A DNA stretch of 64,000 nt from Streptomyces hygroscopicus subsp. hygroscopicus (lineage in GTDB: Bacteria > Actinomycetota > Actinomycetes > Streptomycetales > Streptomycetaceae), in assembly GCF_001553455.1 (NCBI RefSeq), contig NZ_BBOX01000009.1, positions 1 to 64,000 on the forward strand. The letters are read 5' to 3'. Below the pieces are notes generated by a model. That model was not told where the DNA came from. It worked only from the letters and a program-made list of their open reading frames with translations, and searched no databases. Of this stretch, positions 6,507 to 33,218 are shown piece after piece. Numbering within the stretch: position 1 is the stretch's first letter; each line of letters opens with the position of its first letter. Position numbers and translations under genes: made by a program.

Positions 6507-8252
6507 GTGGTTGTGGTGGATGAGTGTGGTCAGGGGCCCCGTGATGCCGGGGTGTCCGCGGCTTTGCCGCAGTTACGTCTGGATGAGTTGTTGGAGGGTT
6601 TGCAGCGGCAGGTGGCGCAGGTGCGGGCGGCGCGTGACCGTGTTCATACGCTGTTGGATGCGGTGCTGGTGATTGGTTCCGATTTGGAGTTGGAGGTGGT
6701 GCTCCAGCGCATTGTGGAGTCGGCTGTCAGTTTGGTGGATGCCAGGTACGGGGCGCTGGGTGTGCTGGGTGAGGAGGGCACGATCAGGCAGTTCCTTACC
6801 GTGGGTGTCGATGAGGAGACTATTGCGGGGATGGGTCATTACCCGCGTGGTGCGGGTATTTTGGGGTTGCTGATCCGTCATCCGGAGCCGTTGCGTCTGG
6901 CGGATCTGGCGCGGCATCCGGCGTCTGTGGGGTTCCCGCCCGGTCATCCGCCGATGACCAGTTTCCTGGGCACTCCGGTCATGGTGCGTGAGCAGGTTTT
7001 CGGGAATCTGTATCTGACGGACAAGCAGGGCGCCGCGCAGTTCGATGCCGATGATGAGGCGGTGTTGCGGACTTTGGCCGCGGCGGCGGGTGTGGCGATC
7101 GACAATGCCCGGCTGTATGAGGATGCCCGCCGTCGGCAGCGGTGGCTGGCAGCCAGCAATGAGCTGACCCGCAGTCTGTTGTCGGGGACCGATCCCGCGG
7201 TGGTGCTGGAGTCCTTCACTTCCACTGTGCGGGAGATGGCGGGGGCGGATCTGGTCACTTTGGCCATTCCGGTCGGTGACGGCAGTGAGCTGGTCATCGA
7301 GGCGGCCTCGGGAACCCATGCCGAGCGGGCGCGGGGTCTGGTGCTGGGGGCTGCGACGCTGGCGGCGAAGGTCTTCGCTTCTGGGGAGACCATCACCAGT
7401 GAGGCGGTCAGCGCCGATCCGCGTGCCGCCGGGGGCAGTGCCGCGATCGTGGAGCTGGGCCCGGCGTTCCTGGTTCCCCTGGGTACGCGTGACCATGTGC
7501 GGGGGGTGCTGCAGGTGGCCAACGCACCTGGCGGCCCGGTCTTCGCCGACACCGTCATCGACATGGTGATCGGATACGGCAACCAGGCGGCGCTGGCCCT
7601 GGACGTCGCCGAACACCGGCAGGACGCCGACCGCATGCTGATCCTCAACGACCGCGACCGGATCGCCCGCGACCTGCACGACCTGGTCATCCAGCGCTTG
7701 TTCGCCTCCGCCCTGACCCTGCAGTCCACCCTCGGCCGCCTGACCGACCAACCACAGACCAGCACACGCGTCCACCAGGTGGTGGACGACCTGGACGACA
7801 CCATCAAAGTCATCCGCTCCACCATCTACTCCCTACGCGAACAGGAACGCACCCGAAGCCAAAGCCTGCGCACCCGCCTGGTGGCGGCCATGGAACGAGC
7901 CACCCAAACCCTCGGCTTCACACCCGCACTACGCATGACCGGACTACTGGACACCACCGTCCCCACCCCACACGCCGAACACCTCCTCGCCGTGGCCGGG
8001 GAGGCCCTGACCAACGTGGCTAGGCACGCCCGGGCCACCGGTGTTGATGTCAGTGTCGAGGTGACCGGTACGCAGCTGCGGCTGGAAGTGGCGGACAACG
8101 GCTGCGGCGTCAGCCCGGCCGTCACCCGCCGAAGCGGGCTGGCCAACCTCCGGCACCGCGCCGAGGAACTGGGCGGTTCCTTCTCCCTGCGCCCGAACGA
8201 GCCGACCGGCACCATCGTGGAATGGACCGTCCCCCTGCCCACCACCCCCTGA
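6507..8252 (+). CDS. DosS/DevS-type two-GAF sensor histidine kinase
   Basis: A 581-aa cytoplasmic kinase with GAF-A (about 50-205), GAF-B (about 225-370), HisKA_3 dimerisation helix with the phospho-acceptor His391 (RDRIARDLHDLVIQRLFAS) and an HATPase_c domain (NVARHARA, DNGCGV, GLANLRHRAEELGG). GAF-A closely resembles Mycobacterium DosS, and His147 in GFPPGHPPM lines up with DosS His149, the proximal haem ligand, so haem binding and O2/NO/CO or redox sensing are likely. AGGGGA at 6501-6506 fits the in-frame GTG at 6513 better than the GTG at 6507. No response regulator gene is adjacent. The first two-thirds uses noticeably more T-ending codons than the last third. Confidence 0.95.
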   Translation: MVVVDECGQGPRDAGVSAALPQLRLDELLEGLQRQVAQVRAARDRVHTLLDAVLVIGSDLELEVVLQRIVESAVSLVDARYGALGVLGEEGTIRQFLTVGVDEETIAGMGHYPRGAGILGLLIRHPEPLRLADLARHPASVGFPPGHPPMTSFLGTPVMVREQVFGNLYLTDKQGAAQFDADDEAVLRTLAAAAGVAIDNARLYEDARRRQRWLAASNELTRSLLSGTDPAVVLESFTSTVREMAGADLVTLAIPVGDGSELVIEAASGTHAERARGLVLGAATLAAKVFASGETITSEAVSADPRAAGGSAAIVELGPAFLVPLGTRDHVRGVLQVANAPGGPVFADTVIDMVIGYGNQAALALDVAEHRQDADRMLILNDRDRIARDLHDLVIQRLFASALTLQSTLGRLTDQPQTSTRVHQVVDDLDDTIKVIRSTIYSLREQERTRSQSLRTRLVAAMERATQTLGFTPALRMTGLLDTTVPTPHAEHLLAVAGEALTNVARHARATGVDVSVEVTGTQLRLEVADNGCGVSPAVTRRSGLANLRHRAEELGGSFSLRPNEPTGTIVEWTVPLPTTP

Positions 8253-8260
8253 CACACCGG

Positions 8261-8289
8261 CACGCCCCCGGCCCCCGACCACGGGCGTG
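8261..8289. terminator. Candidate terminator between convergent genes
   Basis: CACGCCC (8261-8267) pairs with GGGCGTG (8283-8289) across a 15-nt loop in the 54-bp gap between the kinase stop and the stop of the converging hydrolase gene. A moderate hairpin, placed where a bidirectional terminator is expected. Confidence 0.4.
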
Positions 8290-8306
8290 GAGGCCCGAGC
8301 AGGCGC

Positions 8307-9062
8307 TCACCACGTGCTTGTCCGCCAGGTGATCACGGGCCGCAGTTCGTTGCGCAGTGTCTCCAGGAACGTGACGATCTCGGCTGCCACCGAGCGGTGC
8401 TGCAGGTCGTTGAGGACGTCGTGATGGGCGCCGTGGACCACCGCCAGACGGGCCCGGTCCAGTGACTTCGCGGTGCGCGTGAGCGCCTCGTGGTCGGCGA
8501 GCGGATCGGCGTCGCCGATGAGGAACAGGACGGGCACACCGGGGTCGCTGTCGTAGGCGGCCGTGAGCACGGCATCCGGTACCGGGGCGCGGAGTGCGCC
8601 TCGCCGCACCTGGGAGTCCTGGGTGAGTGCGTTTCGGTGGGTGGGGCAGAAGGTGCGGACGTCGAGCTCCTCGTCCCAGGTGTCGACCGCCCCGGTGCCC
8701 TGGCCCGGGAGGCCCGCCAGCACAACGGCATCGGGACGCCGGGCCGCGGGAAGGTCCGTTCGGCCGAGCAGCGCGGCGGTCGCGGCGGCGCCCGAGTCGG
8801 CTCCTATCAGGACGACCGGGTGGACGATGCCGTCGTCGCCCGCTGTCCCGTCGAGGGCGTCGGAGAGACGGTCCGCGAAGTCGGCCGGGTCACCGTCCTC
8901 GACGGCGGGTGCATCGATCACGCGGACGCGGTAGGCGTCGGCGGCGAGTCGCTTGGAGAGCCGGGCGTAGGTCGCCCGTGTCTCGCCCCGGCCGGGCACC
9001 ACGATGACGGTGCCGCGCGTCCGCAGACCTTCGGGGGCGTAGTGGTCGGTGTAGTCGGTCAT
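8307..9062 (-). CDS. Alpha/beta hydrolase
   Basis: About 251 aa. The oxyanion region VIVVPGRGETRATYARLSK opens the fold. The nucleophile elbow is LIGADSGAAAT, where Ser takes the nucleophile place between small residues instead of a strict GxSxG. The acid lies in LIGDADPLADHEAL and the His in VVHGAHHDVLNDLQH. The start is the ATG at 9062 (MTDYTDHYAP); an upstream 30-residue extension is low complexity. It follows the LLM monooxygenase gene on the same strand with about 180 bp between, so joint action on a sulfur or ester compound is possible but unproven. Confidence 0.88.
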   Translation of the reverse strand: MTDYTDHYAPEGLRTRGTVIVVPGRGETRATYARLSKRLAADAYRVRVIDAPAVEDGDPADFADRLSDALDGTAGDDGIVHPVVLIGADSGAAATAALLGRTDLPAARRPDAVVLAGLPGQGTGAVDTWDEELDVRTFCPTHRNALTQDSQVRRGALRAPVPDAVLTAAYDSDPGVPVLFLIGDADPLADHEALTRTAKSLDRARLAVVHGAHHDVLNDLQHRSVAAEIVTFLETLRNELRPVITWRTSTW

Positions 9063-9241
9063 GTCACACTCGCACTTCAGTGGATGGCGGTACGGATGGG
9101 GTGAGGGCTTTCCGGCCCGTGCGGGTGCCGTCGGGCTCACGGTGGGTTCCACGGCACGGATGCGGCGCCGTGGCCGGGGACGGTCCTGCCTCGCTCATTG
9201 CCGTGGCCGGGGATGGTCCTGCCTCGTTCATGACCCGGCCA

Positions 9242-10582
9242 TCAGCCGTTCGCCGACGAGCGCTCGCGGGTCCAGCGGTTGACCGGGACGGGCAGCCCCA
9301 GATTGCCGCGCAGGGTGTCAGCCGGGTACTCGGTGCGGTACAGCCCGCGCTTCTGGAGGATCGGGACGACGCCGTCCACGAACAGATCGAGGTCCTCGTC
9401 GGTGCGGAAGGCGAGATTGATGCCGTCGAACGCGTCGGCGGCGAACCACTGCCCGATGGTGTCGGCGACCGTCTCCGGCGCACCGACGAACGGTGAGCGG
9501 CGGAACTCCGAGAGTGATTCGGCCACCTGCCGCAGGGTCAGGTTCTCGGCCTTGGCGCGGGCGATGAGCTTGGCGGCGCCGGTCCGGCCGCCCTTCTCGG
9601 CGAGGTGTGCCACGTCCGGGAACGGCGCGTCCAGGTCGTGCACGCTGAAGTCGTAGGCGCCGAAGGAACGGCCGAGGAGCGCGAGGTTGCGGTCGAAGTC
9701 GTGGTCCTCCTCGAAGATCTCCCGCTCGCGGCGCCGGGCCGCTTCGTCGGTCGTGGCGACGACCGGGCCGCCATGGATGAAGATCTTGATGTGTTCGGGG
9801 TCGCGCCCGTAGGCGGCGGTGCGGCGCTTGATGTCGGCGTAGTACTCCCGCGCCTGCTCCAGCGGGCCGCCCGGCGCGTAAATGCCTTCGGCGACCCGCG
9901 CGGCGAGGTCGCGGCCCTCTTCGGAGACGCCGGCCTGGAAGATCACCGGCTGTCCTTGTGGCGAGCGCGAGATGTTGAGCGGCCCCGCCACCTTGAAATG
10001 CTCGCCCTCATGGTCGAGCCGGTGCAGTCTGGACGGGTCCAGGAACAGGTTGTGTTCCACATCGGCGGGGAAGGCGTCGTCCTCGTAGGAGTCCCACAGG
10101 CCGCGGGCGACCTGCACGAACTCCAGGGCACGGCGGTAGCGGGTGGTGTAGTCCAGGTGTTCTTCGAGCCCGAAGTTCCGGGAGGTTCCCGTGTCGAAGC
10201 TGGTCACCACGTTCCAGCCGGCGCGGCCACCGCTGATGTGGTCCAGGGAGGCGAACCGCCGGGCCAGGTTGAAGGGCGAGTTGTAGGTCGAACTGGCCGT
10301 GCCGACCAGCCCGACGTGCCGGGTGTGGGTGGCCACCGCCGACAGCAGGGTCAGCGGCTCCAGCCGGTTGAGGTAGTGCGCCGGATAGGTGGCGTTGATG
10401 AACTGGCTGTCGACGATGAACAGGGCGTCGAACAGGGCGTGTTCGGCCGCCTGGGCCTGCCGGATGTAGTAGGTGATGTCGATGCTCGCGTTCTTCGCGA
10501 CGCGCGGGTCCTTCCACAGTCCGTGCTGGCCCGGGCCGCCGACGCCGTACGGGTGCAGCGCGAGGTGGAGCGTGCGGGACAT
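9242..10582 (-). CDS. LLM-class flavin-dependent monooxygenase (NtaA/SnaA/DszA type)
   Basis: A 446-aa TIM-barrel monooxygenase of the luciferase-like class. Diagnostic parts are LALHPYGVGGPGQHGLWK, FDALFIVDS, NSPFNLARRFASLDHIS, GRAGWNVVTSFD and PVIFQAGVSEEGRDLAA, as in NtaA/SnaA/DszA enzymes, which use FMNH2 from a separate reductase to attack C-S or C-N bonds. The ATG at 10582 follows GGGAGG. A Cys-containing leader peptide and a sulfur-type promoter lie upstream (10884-11017), and a scrap of an ABC transporter ATPase is left between, so this gene probably belonged to an organosulfur uptake and desulfonation operon. No reductase gene is nearby. Confidence 0.93.
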   Translation of the reverse strand: MSRTLHLALHPYGVGGPGQHGLWKDPRVAKNASIDITYYIRQAQAAEHALFDALFIVDSQFINATYPAHYLNRLEPLTLLSAVATHTRHVGLVGTASSTYNSPFNLARRFASLDHISGGRAGWNVVTSFDTGTSRNFGLEEHLDYTTRYRRALEFVQVARGLWDSYEDDAFPADVEHNLFLDPSRLHRLDHEGEHFKVAGPLNISRSPQGQPVIFQAGVSEEGRDLAARVAEGIYAPGGPLEQAREYYADIKRRTAAYGRDPEHIKIFIHGGPVVATTDEAARRREREIFEEDHDFDRNLALLGRSFGAYDFSVHDLDAPFPDVAHLAEKGGRTGAAKLIARAKAENLTLRQVAESLSEFRRSPFVGAPETVADTIGQWFAADAFDGINLAFRTDEDLDLFVDGVVPILQKRGLYRTEYPADTLRGNLGLPVPVNRWTRERSSANG

Positions 10583-26406: not shown

Positions 26407-27440
26407 GCCGCGCCGAGGGAGCCGCGCAGCCCGGCGGCGAGCACCGCGCCCACCGCCCCGCCGGCGGCCGCTCCCAGGGCAAGCGGGCGCCGGTGGCGCG
26501 AGGCCCACAGCTGCGGACTGCGGGAGTGCGCCTCCCGGTCGAAGACCCCGTGGGGACCGTGGTCGGCGCCGTGGGCGTCGTCGACCGGCTTCCACAGGTT
26601 CACTGCCCGGGACGGGTCGACGGGCTCGTCCGTCTGCTGCGAGTCGTAACCGGTCCGGGCCAGGTACCTGTCCAGCAGACCGGCCGCGAACCGCTGCCCC
26701 AGCAGGGTGGCGACCGTGGAGCCGCCGATCCAGTACTCCCGTCGCTCCGGGTGGTCGGCGGCGTACAGGATGCCCTCGGCGGCGACCTCCGGCTGGTAGA
26801 CCGGGGCCACCGGCCGCGGATGCCTCGGCAGGCGCGTCAGCACCCAGCTGAACTGCGGCGTGTTCACCCCGGGCAGATGTGCCATGGTCACCCGCACCCG
26901 GCTGCCGTCGTGCATCAGCTCACAGCGCAGCGAGTCGGTGAAACCCCGGATGGCGGCCTTGGCACCGCAGTAGACCGCCTGCAGGGGCACGCTGCGGTAG
27001 GCCAGGGCCGAGCCGACCTGCACGACGGTGCCCCGGTCGCGCGGCAGCATACGGCGCAGAGCCGCCTGGGTGCCGTGGACGAAGCCGAAGTACGTCACCT
27101 CGGTGGCGCGCCGCAGCTCGTCCGGGCGGATCTCCGTGGCCGGGGCGAAGACCGTGGTGAAGGCGGCGTTCACCCAGACGTCGATCGGGCCGAGCCGGTC
27201 CTCCACCTGCTGCGCGGCCGAGTCCACGGCCTCGGCGTCCGCAACGTCGACGACCAGGGGCAGCGCCCGCCCGCCCGCCGTCCGCACCTCTTGCGCGGCC
27301 TGCTCCAGGCCCCTCTGCCCGCGAGCTAGCAGCGCCACGGCGGCGCCACGTGCGCCGAACGCCCGGGCGGTGGCCCGGCCGACGCCGGCGCTCGCGCCCG
27401 TCACCACCACGACCTGGGGGTCCGGCCGGGTGGCGGTCAT
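26388..27440 (-). CDS. SDR oxidoreductase with C-terminal membrane helix
   Basis: A 350-aa protein. Residues 1-250 form a classical [20 protein letters not shown], Ser in [12 protein letters not shown] and YCGAK. A C-terminal extension has an Arg-rich segment and a Gly/Ala-rich hydrophobic helix ([20 protein letters not shown]) ending in RKKRR, so the enzyme is probably membrane-anchored with the positive end in the cytoplasm. Its ATG overlaps the stop of the TPP-enzyme pseudogene by ATGA, implying an old operon. This domain layout is common in actinomycete dehydrogenases of unknown substrate. Confidence 0.9.
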
Positions 27441-28213
27441 TTCTCCCCCCGGCCCGGGAGGCGCCCGGCGTACTCGGTGATCTTCTGCCGCACGCTCCTG
27501 GCGGTGATGCCGGCCTTCCGCGGGTCGTGCAGCGCCGCCTTGGTGGCCTTCTTGCCCTGTGAGGCCATGATGTGCGGCGGGATCGGCGCGATCCCGTTGT
27601 CGACCTTGAACTCCAGCGCCACCGGTTTATCGGCCGCCAGCGCCTCGTCCCAGGCGTCCCCGACCTTCCGGGGGGCCTGGCAGACGGTGCCCTTCAGGCC
27701 GAGCAGCTGGGTGTAGGCCGCGTACGGCACATCGGGGATCTCCGGGGAGCCCGGGTACTTCGGATCGCCCGCCATGGCGCGCTGCTCCCAGGTGACCTGG
27801 TTGAGGTCCTGGTTGTTGAACACGCAGAAGACGAACGGGGCGGCCGGGTTGGTCAGCCGGTCCAGGTAGCGCTTGACGGTGATCATCTCGTTCATGCCGT
27901 TCACCTCTGCTGACCGACCACGGCGACCACCGGCTGGTGGTCCAGCTCGGCGTCGTACAGCCCGTTCAGCAGGTGCACCGCGCCCGGCCCCGAGGTGGCC
28001 GTGCACCAGCCCACCTCGCCGGTGAACTCGGCATGGCGCACAGGCCATGAACGCGGCCATCTCCTCATGCCGCGTCTGGATGAGTTCCGGCTCGCCCCGG
28101 GCGCGGTCGATGGCACCGAGCAGTCCGTTGATGCCGTCTCCGGGGCAGCCGTACACCCGCTGGACGCCCCATTCGGCCGGGCGTTGCAGCACGTAGTCGG
28201 CGACAAGGGTCAT
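27437..28213 (-). pseudogene. TPP-dependent enzyme (pyruvate oxidase/acetolactate-synthase-like), broken
   Basis: From the ATG at 28213 (AGGAGA ribosome site) come [20 protein letters not shown] then [20 protein letters not shown] and the TPP Glu region [11 protein letters not shown] frameshift near 28035 leads to [20 protein letters not shown] and [20 protein letters not shown], then a stop at about 27901. The next segment, from an ATG at 27895, is the C-terminus (FVFCVFNNQDLNQVTWEQRA, PDVPYAAYTQLLGLKGT). About 300 central residues, including the middle domain and the TPP GDG motif, are gone. The intact family is about 590 aa. The 152-aa C-terminal frame may still be translated, being coupled to the SDR gene. 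Confidence 0.85.
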
Positions 28214-28387: not shown

Positions 28388-29797
28388 ATGACCGTGGCTG
28401 GCAAGTTCCCCCCTCCGCACAGCGGTCCGGCCTGCCGGGTGGAATGGGCGCACAGGGTCGTGGCGGAGCCCTGGCTCGGCGCCGGCCCGGAGGCGGTGGC
28501 CGTCGACTCCGCGGCACGCCGCGCCTATGTGGCCTGTTCCCGTGACAACGCGGTGGTCGCCGTGGATCTCGACCGCTGGGTTCCGGTGTGGCGGGCCGGT
28601 GTGGGCAGGGAACCGATCCCGGTCGTACTGGATCTGCCCCGCAGGCGGCTGTTCACGGCCGACGCCCGCTCCGACACGGTCACCGTCCTCGACGCCGACA
28701 ACGCGGACCGTGTCGCCCAGATCACCGTCGGGCAGGACGCCTACCCGGCCGGGCTCGGACACGATCCGGCACGCCGGCGCGTCTTCTGCGGCAACACCGC
28801 CGCCGGTACGATCACCGCCATCGACGCCGACCGGCTGGAGGTGATCGGCGTCATCCCGGCCGAGATCGGCGCGGGCAGCATCGCGGTGGACGAGGAACGG
28901 GGCCGCGGGTACTGCGCGAACTTCATGGCCGGCTCGCTGACCGTGTTCGACACCGAGACCCTGCGTCCCCTGCGGCGGATCGCCGTCGGTGAGGGACCGT
29001 GCAAGACCGTCGCCAACCCCACGACCGGTCACCTGTACGTGGCCGGGTCCCTGCACAGCACGGTGCTGCGGCTTTCCCTCGCGACCGGACGCCCGCTGGA
29101 CGACATGCGGGTCGAGCGAGCCCCGGTCGGCATGTGCGTCTCCCCGGACGGCGGCCGGCTGTACGTCTGCAACCGGGGAGCCGGGACCGTCAGCGCCCTG
29201 GACGCGTCCAGCGGGGCCGAAACACACCGCATCACCGTCGGTCACGGCCCCGGCGACTGCCACATCGACGCGGCCACCGGGCGGCTGCTGGTCTCCAACG
29301 CCGGAAGCGGCACGCTGACCGTGGTGGACAGGCCCTGGCTGCCGGGACCGGTACGGCCCCAGACCCATCCGGCGGTCGGCCGGAGGATCCCCCACTTCGC
29401 CCTGCCCGACGCCCGGACCGGTCAGGAGCGCACCACACGGGAGTGGGCGGAGAAGAAGTACGTGATCAACTTTTTCGCGAGCTGGTGAGGCCCGTGCAAT
29501 GCGGAGGCGCCGGTCCTCGAGGAACTGCGCCGCCGTACCGCCCGGTCCGGGCTGGACATCATTCTGATCAACGTGTGGGAAACGCGCCGGGCACGCGAGG
29601 AGGCACTCCGCTTCGCCGCCGTGTGGAACGTGGAGGGCCCCCTCCTGCTGGACGAGACCGGCGACTACGCCGCCAGGCTCGGCATCACCGGTGTCCCCAC
29701 GAACGTACTGGTCGACGACAACGGAATCGTGCGGGCGGTCGGTGCCGTGACTCCGGCCGAGCTCGAGCGGGCTGTGGCCGATCTGCTGGGGGACTGA
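28388..29797 (+). CDS. YncE-like beta-propeller/TlpA thioredoxin fusion with in-frame TGA (possible selenoprotein)
   Basis: A 469-codon frame. Residues about 15-325 form a YncE/YVTN-type seven-bladed propeller with repeats such as GTITAIDADRLEVIGVIPAE and GTVSALDASSGAETHRITVG. Residues about 335-469 form a TlpA/ResA-like domain (PHFALPDARTGQERT, YVINFFASW, ITGVPTNVLVDDNGIVRAVG). Codon 367 is TGA (29486-29488) exactly where the nucleophilic Cys of WCGPC belongs: W-TGA-GPCNAEAP. Everything after it stays in frame to a normal stop at 29797. Either selenocysteine is inserted (UxxC motif) or a Cys codon has mutated and a 366-aa propeller alone is made. No clear signal peptide is visible from the ATG at 28388, and the start is uncertain. 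Confidence 0.75.
29504..29518 (+). promoter_or_regulatory. Possible bacterial SECIS-like hairpin after the in-frame TGA
   Basis: GAGG (29504-29507) and CCTC (29515-29518) can form a short stem with the 7-nt loop CGCCGGT; the loop begins 19 nt after the TGA and has G as its second base. Those values fall within the loose bacterial SECIS pattern, but a 4-bp stem is weak and such hairpins are frequent in GC-rich DNA. Confidence 0.25.
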
Positions 29798-30076
29798 CCC
29801 GGCCGTTCCCCGTGCCGCGAGGCCCGGCGGGCCTGCCCGGGGGAGGGCATCCACTTGCCGCTTCGGCCGAAGGTCCACCGGTGCCGTGCCGGGAGTACCC
29901 GGGGTGACGGCCGGCACGCGACCCGCGACCGCGCGGGACGGGGCCGCTGGGCCCGGATCGTGCGTCGCCCGCCCGCCCGGTGCGGGGCGGCACCGGTGGT
30001 TTCGGGCGGGCTGCGTGCGTGAGCGCCGCACGCGAGGGTACCCAGGACCGCTGAGACGGGTGAGGAGGGACAGACC

Positions 30077-32041: not shown

Positions 32042-33218
32042 GTGACGCAATTTTCCTCATACCAGGACGAACTGTGCGGCCAGGGCAGCGCGGCCATCAG
32101 CCCCCGTACCCGATGACGTTCCAGGAGCTTCGGGAGAGGGCGTCGGCCGCGATGCCGCCGAAGGTCTGGGTGGGGGTATGTGGCCGGTGTTGGCGCCGGT
32201 GACGAGCACACGCAGCGAGCCAATTGCGCGGCGTTCCAGCGCTGGGGTCTGTACCCGCGCATGCTGGTGGCGCCTACCGAGCGGGACATGTCGATCGAGC
32301 TGTTCGGTGTGCGGCTGCCCTCGCCCGTGTTCATGGCGCCGGTCGGGGTGATCGGGGTGTGTGCTCAGGGCGGTCACGGCGACATGGCGGGTGCGCGGGC
32401 CTCCGCGCGGACCGGTGTTCCGTTCCTCGCCGGTAGCCTGTCGGCGGATCCGATGGAAGAAGCGGCGGCGGAACGCGGCGGCACGCCGGGCTCCTTCCAG
32501 CTGTACACGCCGCCGGACCGGGAGATGGCCGCGAGCCTGGTGCACCGCGCCGAGGCCGCCGGCTTCCGGGCCATCGCCGTCACCCTCGACACCTGGGTCA
32601 CCGGCTGGCGGCCCCGCGACCTGGCCGGGCCGAACTATCCGCACGTCCTCAGCGGTTGCCTGAGCCACTACACCAGCGATCCGGCCTTCCGCGAGCGGCT
32701 GCGGCCTGGCGCGGACGCGACCGAGGTGGCGGTGCGTACCTTGCCGATCTTCGGTGGTCCGTTCCGGTGGGAGGACCTGGAAGTGGCTGCGGTCGGAGAC
32801 CGGACTGCCCCTCATGCTGAAGGGCGTCTGCCATCCCGACGACGTTCGCCGGGGCAAGGACTACGGTGTGGCCGCTGTCTACTGATCCCACCACGGCGGG
32901 CGGCAGGCCAACGGAGGGCTGGCCGCGCTGGACTGCCTGCCCGATGTGGTCCAGGCCGCCGACGGGCTGCCGGTCCTGTTCGACTCGGGGGTGCGTACGG
33001 GCGCCGACATCATCAAGGCGCTGGCGCTGGCGCTGGCGCTGGGTGCGGCAGTGGTAGGGGTCGGTCGCCCGTACTGCTACGGACTGGCGCTCGGCGGCGT
33101 CGACGGCGTCGCGCACGTGCTGCGCTCGCTCCTGGCCGAAGCGGACTTGAGCATGGCCGTCGACGGGTATCCCACGCGCAAGGACCTCACGCCCGATGCG
33201 CTGCGCTTCGTGGGGTGA
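32042..33218 (+). pseudogene. Lactate 2-monooxygenase gene with several frameshifts and a stop
   Basis: The product would be an FMN-dependent 2-hydroxyacid oxidase of lactate monooxygenase type. Starting at the GTG at 32042 (MTQFSSYQDEL) the reading must change frame near 32110 and 32168 to continue MTFQELRERASAAMPPKVW and AGDEHTQRANCAAFQRWGL, then runs well through LPSPVFMAPVGVIGVCAQGG and TLDTWVTGWRPRDLAG. Another shift near 32790 leads to LMLKGVCHPDDVRRGKDYGV. A TGA at 32883-32885 precedes [17 protein letters not shown]. Intact homologues read [14 protein letters not shown], so the TGA stands at a Cys codon. At least four lesions make it a dead gene. Confidence 0.88.

Follow-up and report, generated by a model that had tools for sequence, protein, structure and literature searches.

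The gene at positions 28388–29797 (forward strand) of the window, the 64,000-nucleotide stretch of Streptomyces hygroscopicus subsp. hygroscopicus DNA analysed here, very probably encodes a selenoprotein (probability about 0.9). Selenocysteine (Sec) would be inserted at the in-frame UGA at 29486 in a SelB-dependent manner, positioned by an mRNA hairpin, to yield a propeller joined to a TlpA/ResA-like domain with the motif W-Sec-G-P-C. The confidence rests on two observations: every relative found has the TGA at the reactive site, and almost all genomes in which these relatives occur also encode the Sec machinery.

Read-through translation of positions 28391–29799 gave a 468-residue chain with a single internal TGA, in the context VINFFASW-U-GPCNAEAPVLEELRRRT, and the final TGA at 29795–29797. 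Candidate start codons are ATG 28388, GTG 28394 or a GTG further upstream; when ATG 28388 is presumed, the full product comprises 469 aa and the UGA-terminated product 366 aa. The internal TGA (29486–29488, +) corresponds to Sec366 (numbering from 28391), the first position of UGPC, and sits where the nucleophilic cysteine is expected (FFASW-U-GPCNAEAP); Cys369, which is expected to be the resolving residue of the motif, is encoded at 29495–29497 (+). The preliminary description had placed the TGA on the first cysteine of a WCxxC motif (FASW-TGA-GPCNAEAP), followed by 102 open codons up to a normal stop, had given products of 469 and 366 aa, and had seen no frameshift or deletion in this gene; translation confirmed each of these points. 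The open run of 102 codons is itself unremarkable (chance openness P = 0.51 at this base composition), so that conservation is needed to decide. What goes beyond chance is the TGA at the same codon, together with a conserved domain downstream, in all 23 distinct orthologues found.

The N-terminal part of the product, about residues 20–315 (28448–29335, +), was assigned as a seven-bladed YVTN/YncE-like propeller on the basis of Pfam, NCBIfam, AlphaFold2 and Foldseek (PF21783 YNCE, 55.6 bits against a cut-off of 27.1; TIGR02276 YVTN repeat, 95.5 against 27.85). It is followed by a thioredoxin-fold domain of the TlpA/ResA/Redoxin type (residues 329–457; 29375–29761, +), identified by Pfam, profile matches and the structural model, which exceeded the curated cut-offs of PF08534 (70.7 bits against 26.6) and PF00578 (AhpC-TSA; 58.3 against 26). 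Among the NCBIfam models, only the YVTN repeat scored above its cut-off, with ResA, DsbE and others below theirs. An AlphaFold2 model based on 16 orthologues (pLDDT 87.7, pTM 0.86; residues 1–16 with pLDDT under 50) comprised 28 strands arranged as seven blades of four, and then a thioredoxin-type order of strands and helices. The top Foldseek matches were a YVTN surface-layer propeller (1l0q), Lp49, YncE and hydrazine synthase; in a profile search of PDB sequences, the propeller matched 1l0q and YncE, and the C-terminal domain matched DsbE and ResA. Cys49 and Cys204 of the propeller, Sec and Cys369 were invariant in 23/23 sequences; judging from propeller topology, Cys49 and Cys204 should face the same side. 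Four propeller cysteines had appeared invariant in an alignment of 16 sequences, of which only these two remained when 23 were compared. No signal peptide or membrane segment was evident by eye in the translations, and the protein therefore probably works in the cytosol.

Orthologues were collected in several searches. Among 392 genomes of the same genus (host included, E<=1e-20), matches were obtained in 19. Seven of these, from the host and six other genomes (67–83% identical), were full-length and contained one internal TGA each, and the other 12 genomes contributed 13 places that align to the propeller only, ending at query residues 285–314. A scan of species genomes contributed 13 loci, which lie in Streptomyces, Microtetraspora (2), Actinoallomurus (2) and Planosporangium; Streptomyces sp. 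NRRL S-340, S. triticisoli and S. kebangsaanensis are among the carriers. Seven more genomes came from profile searches, which were run on 396 genomes of the phylum, 249 from the class of genome G703 and 394 from the host's own class (overlapping samples that include the host). Six of these seven belong to a single genus in a different class and the seventh to the host's own class. After removal of four repeats, the orthologue set comprised 23 distinct proteins from Streptomyces, Microtetraspora, Actinoallomurus, Planosporangium and other actinobacteria, which belong to two classes, with six proteins from the class other than that of the host. TGA was present at the Sec codon in 23/23 of these proteins and a cysteine three residues downstream in 23/23; none carried TGC or TGT, and the TGA was thus not restricted to one strain. 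In the genomes searched, which for the profile were all Actinomycetota, no full-length relative with cysteine was found above thresholds of 1e-20 to 1e-45, and plasmid records contained no relatives at E<=1e-20. Cysteine at the Sec position is known for the C-terminal domain alone, from CxxC proteins of the ResA/DsbE type (profile match).

The host genome (9.46 Mb in 679 contigs, with the window on contig C9) contains selA, selB, selD and tRNASec(UCA) in one cluster on contig C106, near a formate dehydrogenase (FDH) gene with an in-frame TGA of its own. SelA (E=1.4e-94) and SelD (E=6.2e-112) were clear matches. The SelB gene lies directly after selA, and its product contains an EF-Tu GTPase and a SelB-wing_3 domain above the Pfam cut-offs, with a score of 215.6 that is below the NCBIfam selB cut-off of 242.25. 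The tRNASec (77.3 bits against a cut-off of 47; called tRNA-SeC, anticodon tca, by ARAGORN) lies on the opposite strand between selB and selD. In the FDH gene, the TGA is found within ARI-U-HSS and is followed by the hairpin GUUCCC-GGUCU-GGGAAC, which, with its loop GGUCU, fits the published bacterial SECIS model. At locus L021, the tRNASec (9903–9996, -) is antisense to selB and overlaps the 3' end of its called ORF (8096–9961), so that the end of selB or the overlap is questionable, and according to the ORF list a hemerythrin-like ORF adjoins selA. In Streptomyces incarnatus, a selABCD cluster is located near a Sec-containing formate dehydrogenase (PMC4498112), as in the present host. The part of that report considered here names FDH-O as the only selenoprotein, whereas the present host would have a second client.

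SelA was detected in 21/22 orthologue genomes tested (7/7 of the same genus and 14/15 further ones, with G1069 outside the test). Across the 392 same-genus genomes, SelA matches numbered 81 at E<=0.001 and 79 above the cut-off; full-length SelA (E<=3.1e-71) was present in 67, including all seven carriers of the fusion. For 7/7 carriers against this background of 67/392, P=3.3e-6 on the assumption of independent genomes, which ignores kinship, and the genomes are not independent. tRNASec was found above the cut-off in 21/23 orthologue genomes as compared to 0/20 SelA-negative Streptomyces, the controls being the 20 listed among 311 genomes without a SelA match and the tRNASec search being run with stricter filters. 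In G957 (78% complete), SelA was present and tRNASec was not found. In G993 (S. mexicanus Marseille-Q0842), searches for SelA and tRNASec gave no match despite an intact orthologue (L077) with the TGA; either the sel genes may have been lost in assembly or the selenoprotein gene may be stranded there, and the genome counts against a strict link of gene and Sec machinery. Relaxed selection in this SelA-less genome was considered, as L077 shows three odd substitutions, yet other rows of the alignment equal or exceed this number (up to eight), and relaxed selection is therefore not supported. In the single genome of Microtetraspora malaysiensis (G992:C13, G992:C5, G992:C29), SelA (full-length) and tRNASec (above the cut-off) each occur twice. 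The candidate selenoprotein put forward in the preliminary description is thus upheld by the sel genes of the host and by a TGA that is shared by 23/23 orthologues rather than unique to one strain.

Selection on the coding sequence was assessed by pairwise comparison (Nei-Gojobori; 16/23 sequences, 120 pairs). The median dN/dS was 0.25 for the 120 codons that precede the UGA and 0.31 for the 100 that follow it, with a maximum of 0.58 in the latter stretch, and purifying selection acts downstream of the UGA as judged from these coding sequences. Across the 23 sequences, 106 positions were invariant, among them F361–N370 around Sec.

It is improbable that the UGA acts as a true stop under selection, with the 366-aa propeller as the working product and the downstream frame separate or rarely read through. 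The propeller is complete ahead of the UGA, and a certain amount of termination would occur at a Sec UGA anyway. Against such a stop, however, the UGA falls within the thioredoxin fold, after the first strand and before the resolving cysteine, invariant residues flank it on both sides, and the family co-occurs with the Sec machinery; a restart downstream of the UGA would, moreover, give a product without the active site. Even less probable is a read-through in which another residue, for instance tryptophan or cysteine delivered by a near-cognate tRNA, takes the place of Sec. G993, with the gene and no SelA or tRNASec found, is compatible with this explanation, but the codon occupies the Cys/Sec position of WxGPC, the sel genes co-occur with the family, and the host has a TGA at the place of Sec in an FDH.

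A pseudogene, in which a cysteine codon was mutated to a stop in a decaying neighbourhood and the downstream frame is dead, has a very small residual probability. A single-base change would suffice, the downstream open run is likely by chance, and the preliminary description had pointed to four decayed genes nearby, of which at least two do look decayed in the ORF list: a gene for a TPP-dependent oxidase-like protein (27437–28206, -), apparently reduced to N- and C-terminal pieces and thus pseudogene-like, and one for an FMN-dependent alpha-hydroxy-acid/lactate-oxidase-like protein (32180–33218, +), apparently split across frames. Opposed to this stand the TGA in 23/23 distinct orthologues, the conserved residues and low dN/dS downstream of it, and a frame that is otherwise without defect; a strain-specific event is refuted by the orthologues. 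A sequencing or assembly error in the window, conceivable for an assembly of 679 contigs, has a negligible probability and is refuted by the orthologues, which have the identical TGA in 22 further genomes.

For the selenoprotein favoured here, a SECIS element would be expected close to the UGA. The strongest synonymous-codon constraint of the gene was located at 29501–29545 (+), corresponding to alignment columns +5 to +20 after the UGA, where the identical-codon excess reached 0.348 (mean 0.056, SD 0.066), the highest among the 16-column windows of the gene. Synonymous constraint after the UGA is a prediction of the SECIS, since the bacterial SECIS occupies that stretch. Consensus folding and pair counts in the 23 orthologues revealed a shared mRNA hairpin at 29501–29536 (+) as a SECIS candidate. 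Its lower stem (29501–29503/29534–29536) has all three pairs in 23/23 sequences; the five pairs of the upper stem (29506–29510/29527–29531) are intact in 17/23, with six sequences breaking a pair, and the three pairs of the apical stem (29514–29516/29521–29523), which encloses a 4-nt loop (29517–29520), are likewise present in 17/23. In total, 85.3% of the cells were paired, as compared to 31–53% when the partners were shifted by 1–3 columns. In three of the pairs both sides change among orthologues, and the apical stem of L073 has G-C in place of the majority C-G. Covariation was weak: of 500 shuffles, 183, 18, 177, 16 and 49 reached the five observed values (percentage paired 183/500, covariation score 49/500, two counting measures 18 and 16). 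The folding energy of the window gene was ordinary, with 372/1000 synonymous recodings at least as stable. The energy ranked 41/1000 or lower in 4/23 orthologues, and the mean z of -0.79 for the hairpin stretch was the second lowest among 66 stretches along the gene. A search of 29400–29700 against Rfam returned no match at the gathering score; the two weak matches there were far below theirs.

The bSECIS model of PMC13188914 specifies a loop of 3–9 nt, an upper stem of 4–16 bp, a spacing of 16–37 nt, an MFE <= -7.5 and a G in the first two places of the loop. The shared hairpin lies within the limits for spacing (28 nt), loop (4 nt) and energy; the loop G is found in 9/23 orthologues and is absent from the window, and the hairpin thus agrees with the published model of the bacterial SECIS in part only. 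From the comparative sequence data, the stretch is read as a candidate SECIS of unsettled exact form. The preliminary description had suggested a different hairpin, GAGG/CCTC, as the SECIS. This hairpin is present in the window, but it was rejected as the SECIS because it is exact in only 6/23 orthologues and retains all four pairs (G-U allowed) in 8/23, whereas the hairpin at 29501–29536 is shared.

The gene tree splits the Streptomyces sequences into three distinct clades, with Microtetraspora, Actinoallomurus and Planosporangium alongside them. Horizontal transfer of the propeller-TlpA gene is possible, and only that, because the Streptomyces clades are separate but the forks joining the clades are without resolution. 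No gene was common to the surroundings of all loci compared (13 orthologue loci and the window), and no function was therefore taken from neighbours; an EamA-like transporter (below the Pfam cut-off), an MFS transporter and a hemerythrin-domain protein recurred near some loci. In the window, a hemerythrin-domain gene (PF01814; 30077–30742, +) follows the selenoprotein gene, and a hemerythrin-related group of ORFs was seen near orthologues L075, L077, L083 and L084, with one confirmed hemerythrin (L083). In both Actinoallomurus genomes, a gene for the hydrogenase-maturation protein HypD lies upstream of the orthologue (L078:2330–3454, -; L079:774–1898, -), assigned by PF01924 in L078 and by similarity in L079.

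The comparative data support the decoding step at the UGA well, and from them we infer Sec insertion itself; the redox chemistry is proposed by analogy with the ResA/TlpA family. According to the mechanism envisaged, a complex of SelB, GTP and Sec-tRNASec, positioned by the hairpin at 29501–29536, would insert Sec at UGA 29486 in competition with the release factor, and read-through would carry translation into the thioredoxin-fold half of the protein. Sec366 would then act as the attacking selenolate and Cys369 as the resolving thiol in thiol-disulfide exchange, with the reduction of peroxides or mixed disulfides as possible reactions. The propeller may dock a partner or substrate, perhaps with participation of the invariant Cys49 and Cys204. 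A rather unlikely extension of this scheme is that the proteins form a Sec-only actinobacterial family in which the UGA serves as a selenium switch, such that a propeller-selenothioredoxin would be made when selenium is available and the propeller alone, with a different role, when it is not. With selenium, the propeller-selenothioredoxin might then exchange electrons with a docked partner or with the invariant cysteines of its own propeller, and the gene would report the selenium supply.

Related proteins are known for each half of the product. ResA, TlpA and DsbE are CxxC proteins that act in cytochrome c maturation and are either secreted or anchored in the membrane. By profile, the C-terminal domain is the same as theirs (PDB 4nmu, 1st9, 3gl3, 1jfu), whereas the present protein has Sec for the first cysteine, an N-terminally fused propeller and no evident signal segment. 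Solved YVTN/YncE propellers (PDB 1l0q, 3vgz) share the seven-bladed fold and the repeat but match the propeller part only, while here a thioredoxin-fold domain with Sec is attached. A thioredoxin-like domain joined to an NHL propeller is found in NHLRC2-type proteins, in which, however, the thioredoxin comes first and is not known to contain Sec, as opposed to the propeller-first order with Sec seen here. The NCBIfam model NF041054 (ResA-like WAxxUGC selenoprotein) likewise describes a ResA-like domain with Sec; it gave a weak match to the C-terminal domain (49.1 bits, far below its cut-off of 300 bits), its motif differs from the WUGPC found here, and its name shows no propeller.

UxxC thioredoxin-fold selenoproteins are a known kind. 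The UxxC entries in Table 1 of Zhang et al. 2026 (PMC13188914) include Sec-thioredoxin (PF00085), the Redoxin family (PF08534), a thiol-disulfide isomerase-like UxxC protein (cd02966) and a UGC-containing TlpA family. They resemble the present protein in having Sec first in a thioredoxin-type motif, and PF08534 gave the best Pfam match in the present case. A propeller is not mentioned for any of these entries, which are set apart by description only, and HEU0032618.1, for example, could be a relative. In its available part, the main text of PMC13188914 contains no mention of propeller, YncE, NHL, Actinobacteri, Actinomycet or Streptomyces; the same holds for Streptomyces, propeller and TlpA in the available part of the deep-Sep paper (PMC12013277), and for propeller, TlpA and thioredoxin in that of Peng et al. 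2016 (PMC5029168). Within the literature searched and the accessible portion of the 2026 catalogue (PMC13188914), no description of a family combining a propeller with a UGPC domain of the TlpA type was found, in agreement with the preliminary description, which had suggested that the architecture would be new. The fusion with a propeller, apparently Sec-only, would therefore represent a new build, with an earlier mention under a generic name possible, for instance among the catalogue entries of PMC13188914 that were compared by description.

For Streptomyces, a thiol-redox protein would thus become a second client of the Sec machinery, next to the FDH that PMC4498112, in the part considered, names alone. 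Ordinary gene calling would probably end this gene at the UGA. According to the authors of deep-Sep (PMC12013277; tested on 20 genomes), selenoproteins without cysteine homologues may be misidentified; as the present family appears to belong to this class, with no cysteine counterpart found, further members may lie concealed among genes that look truncated or broken.
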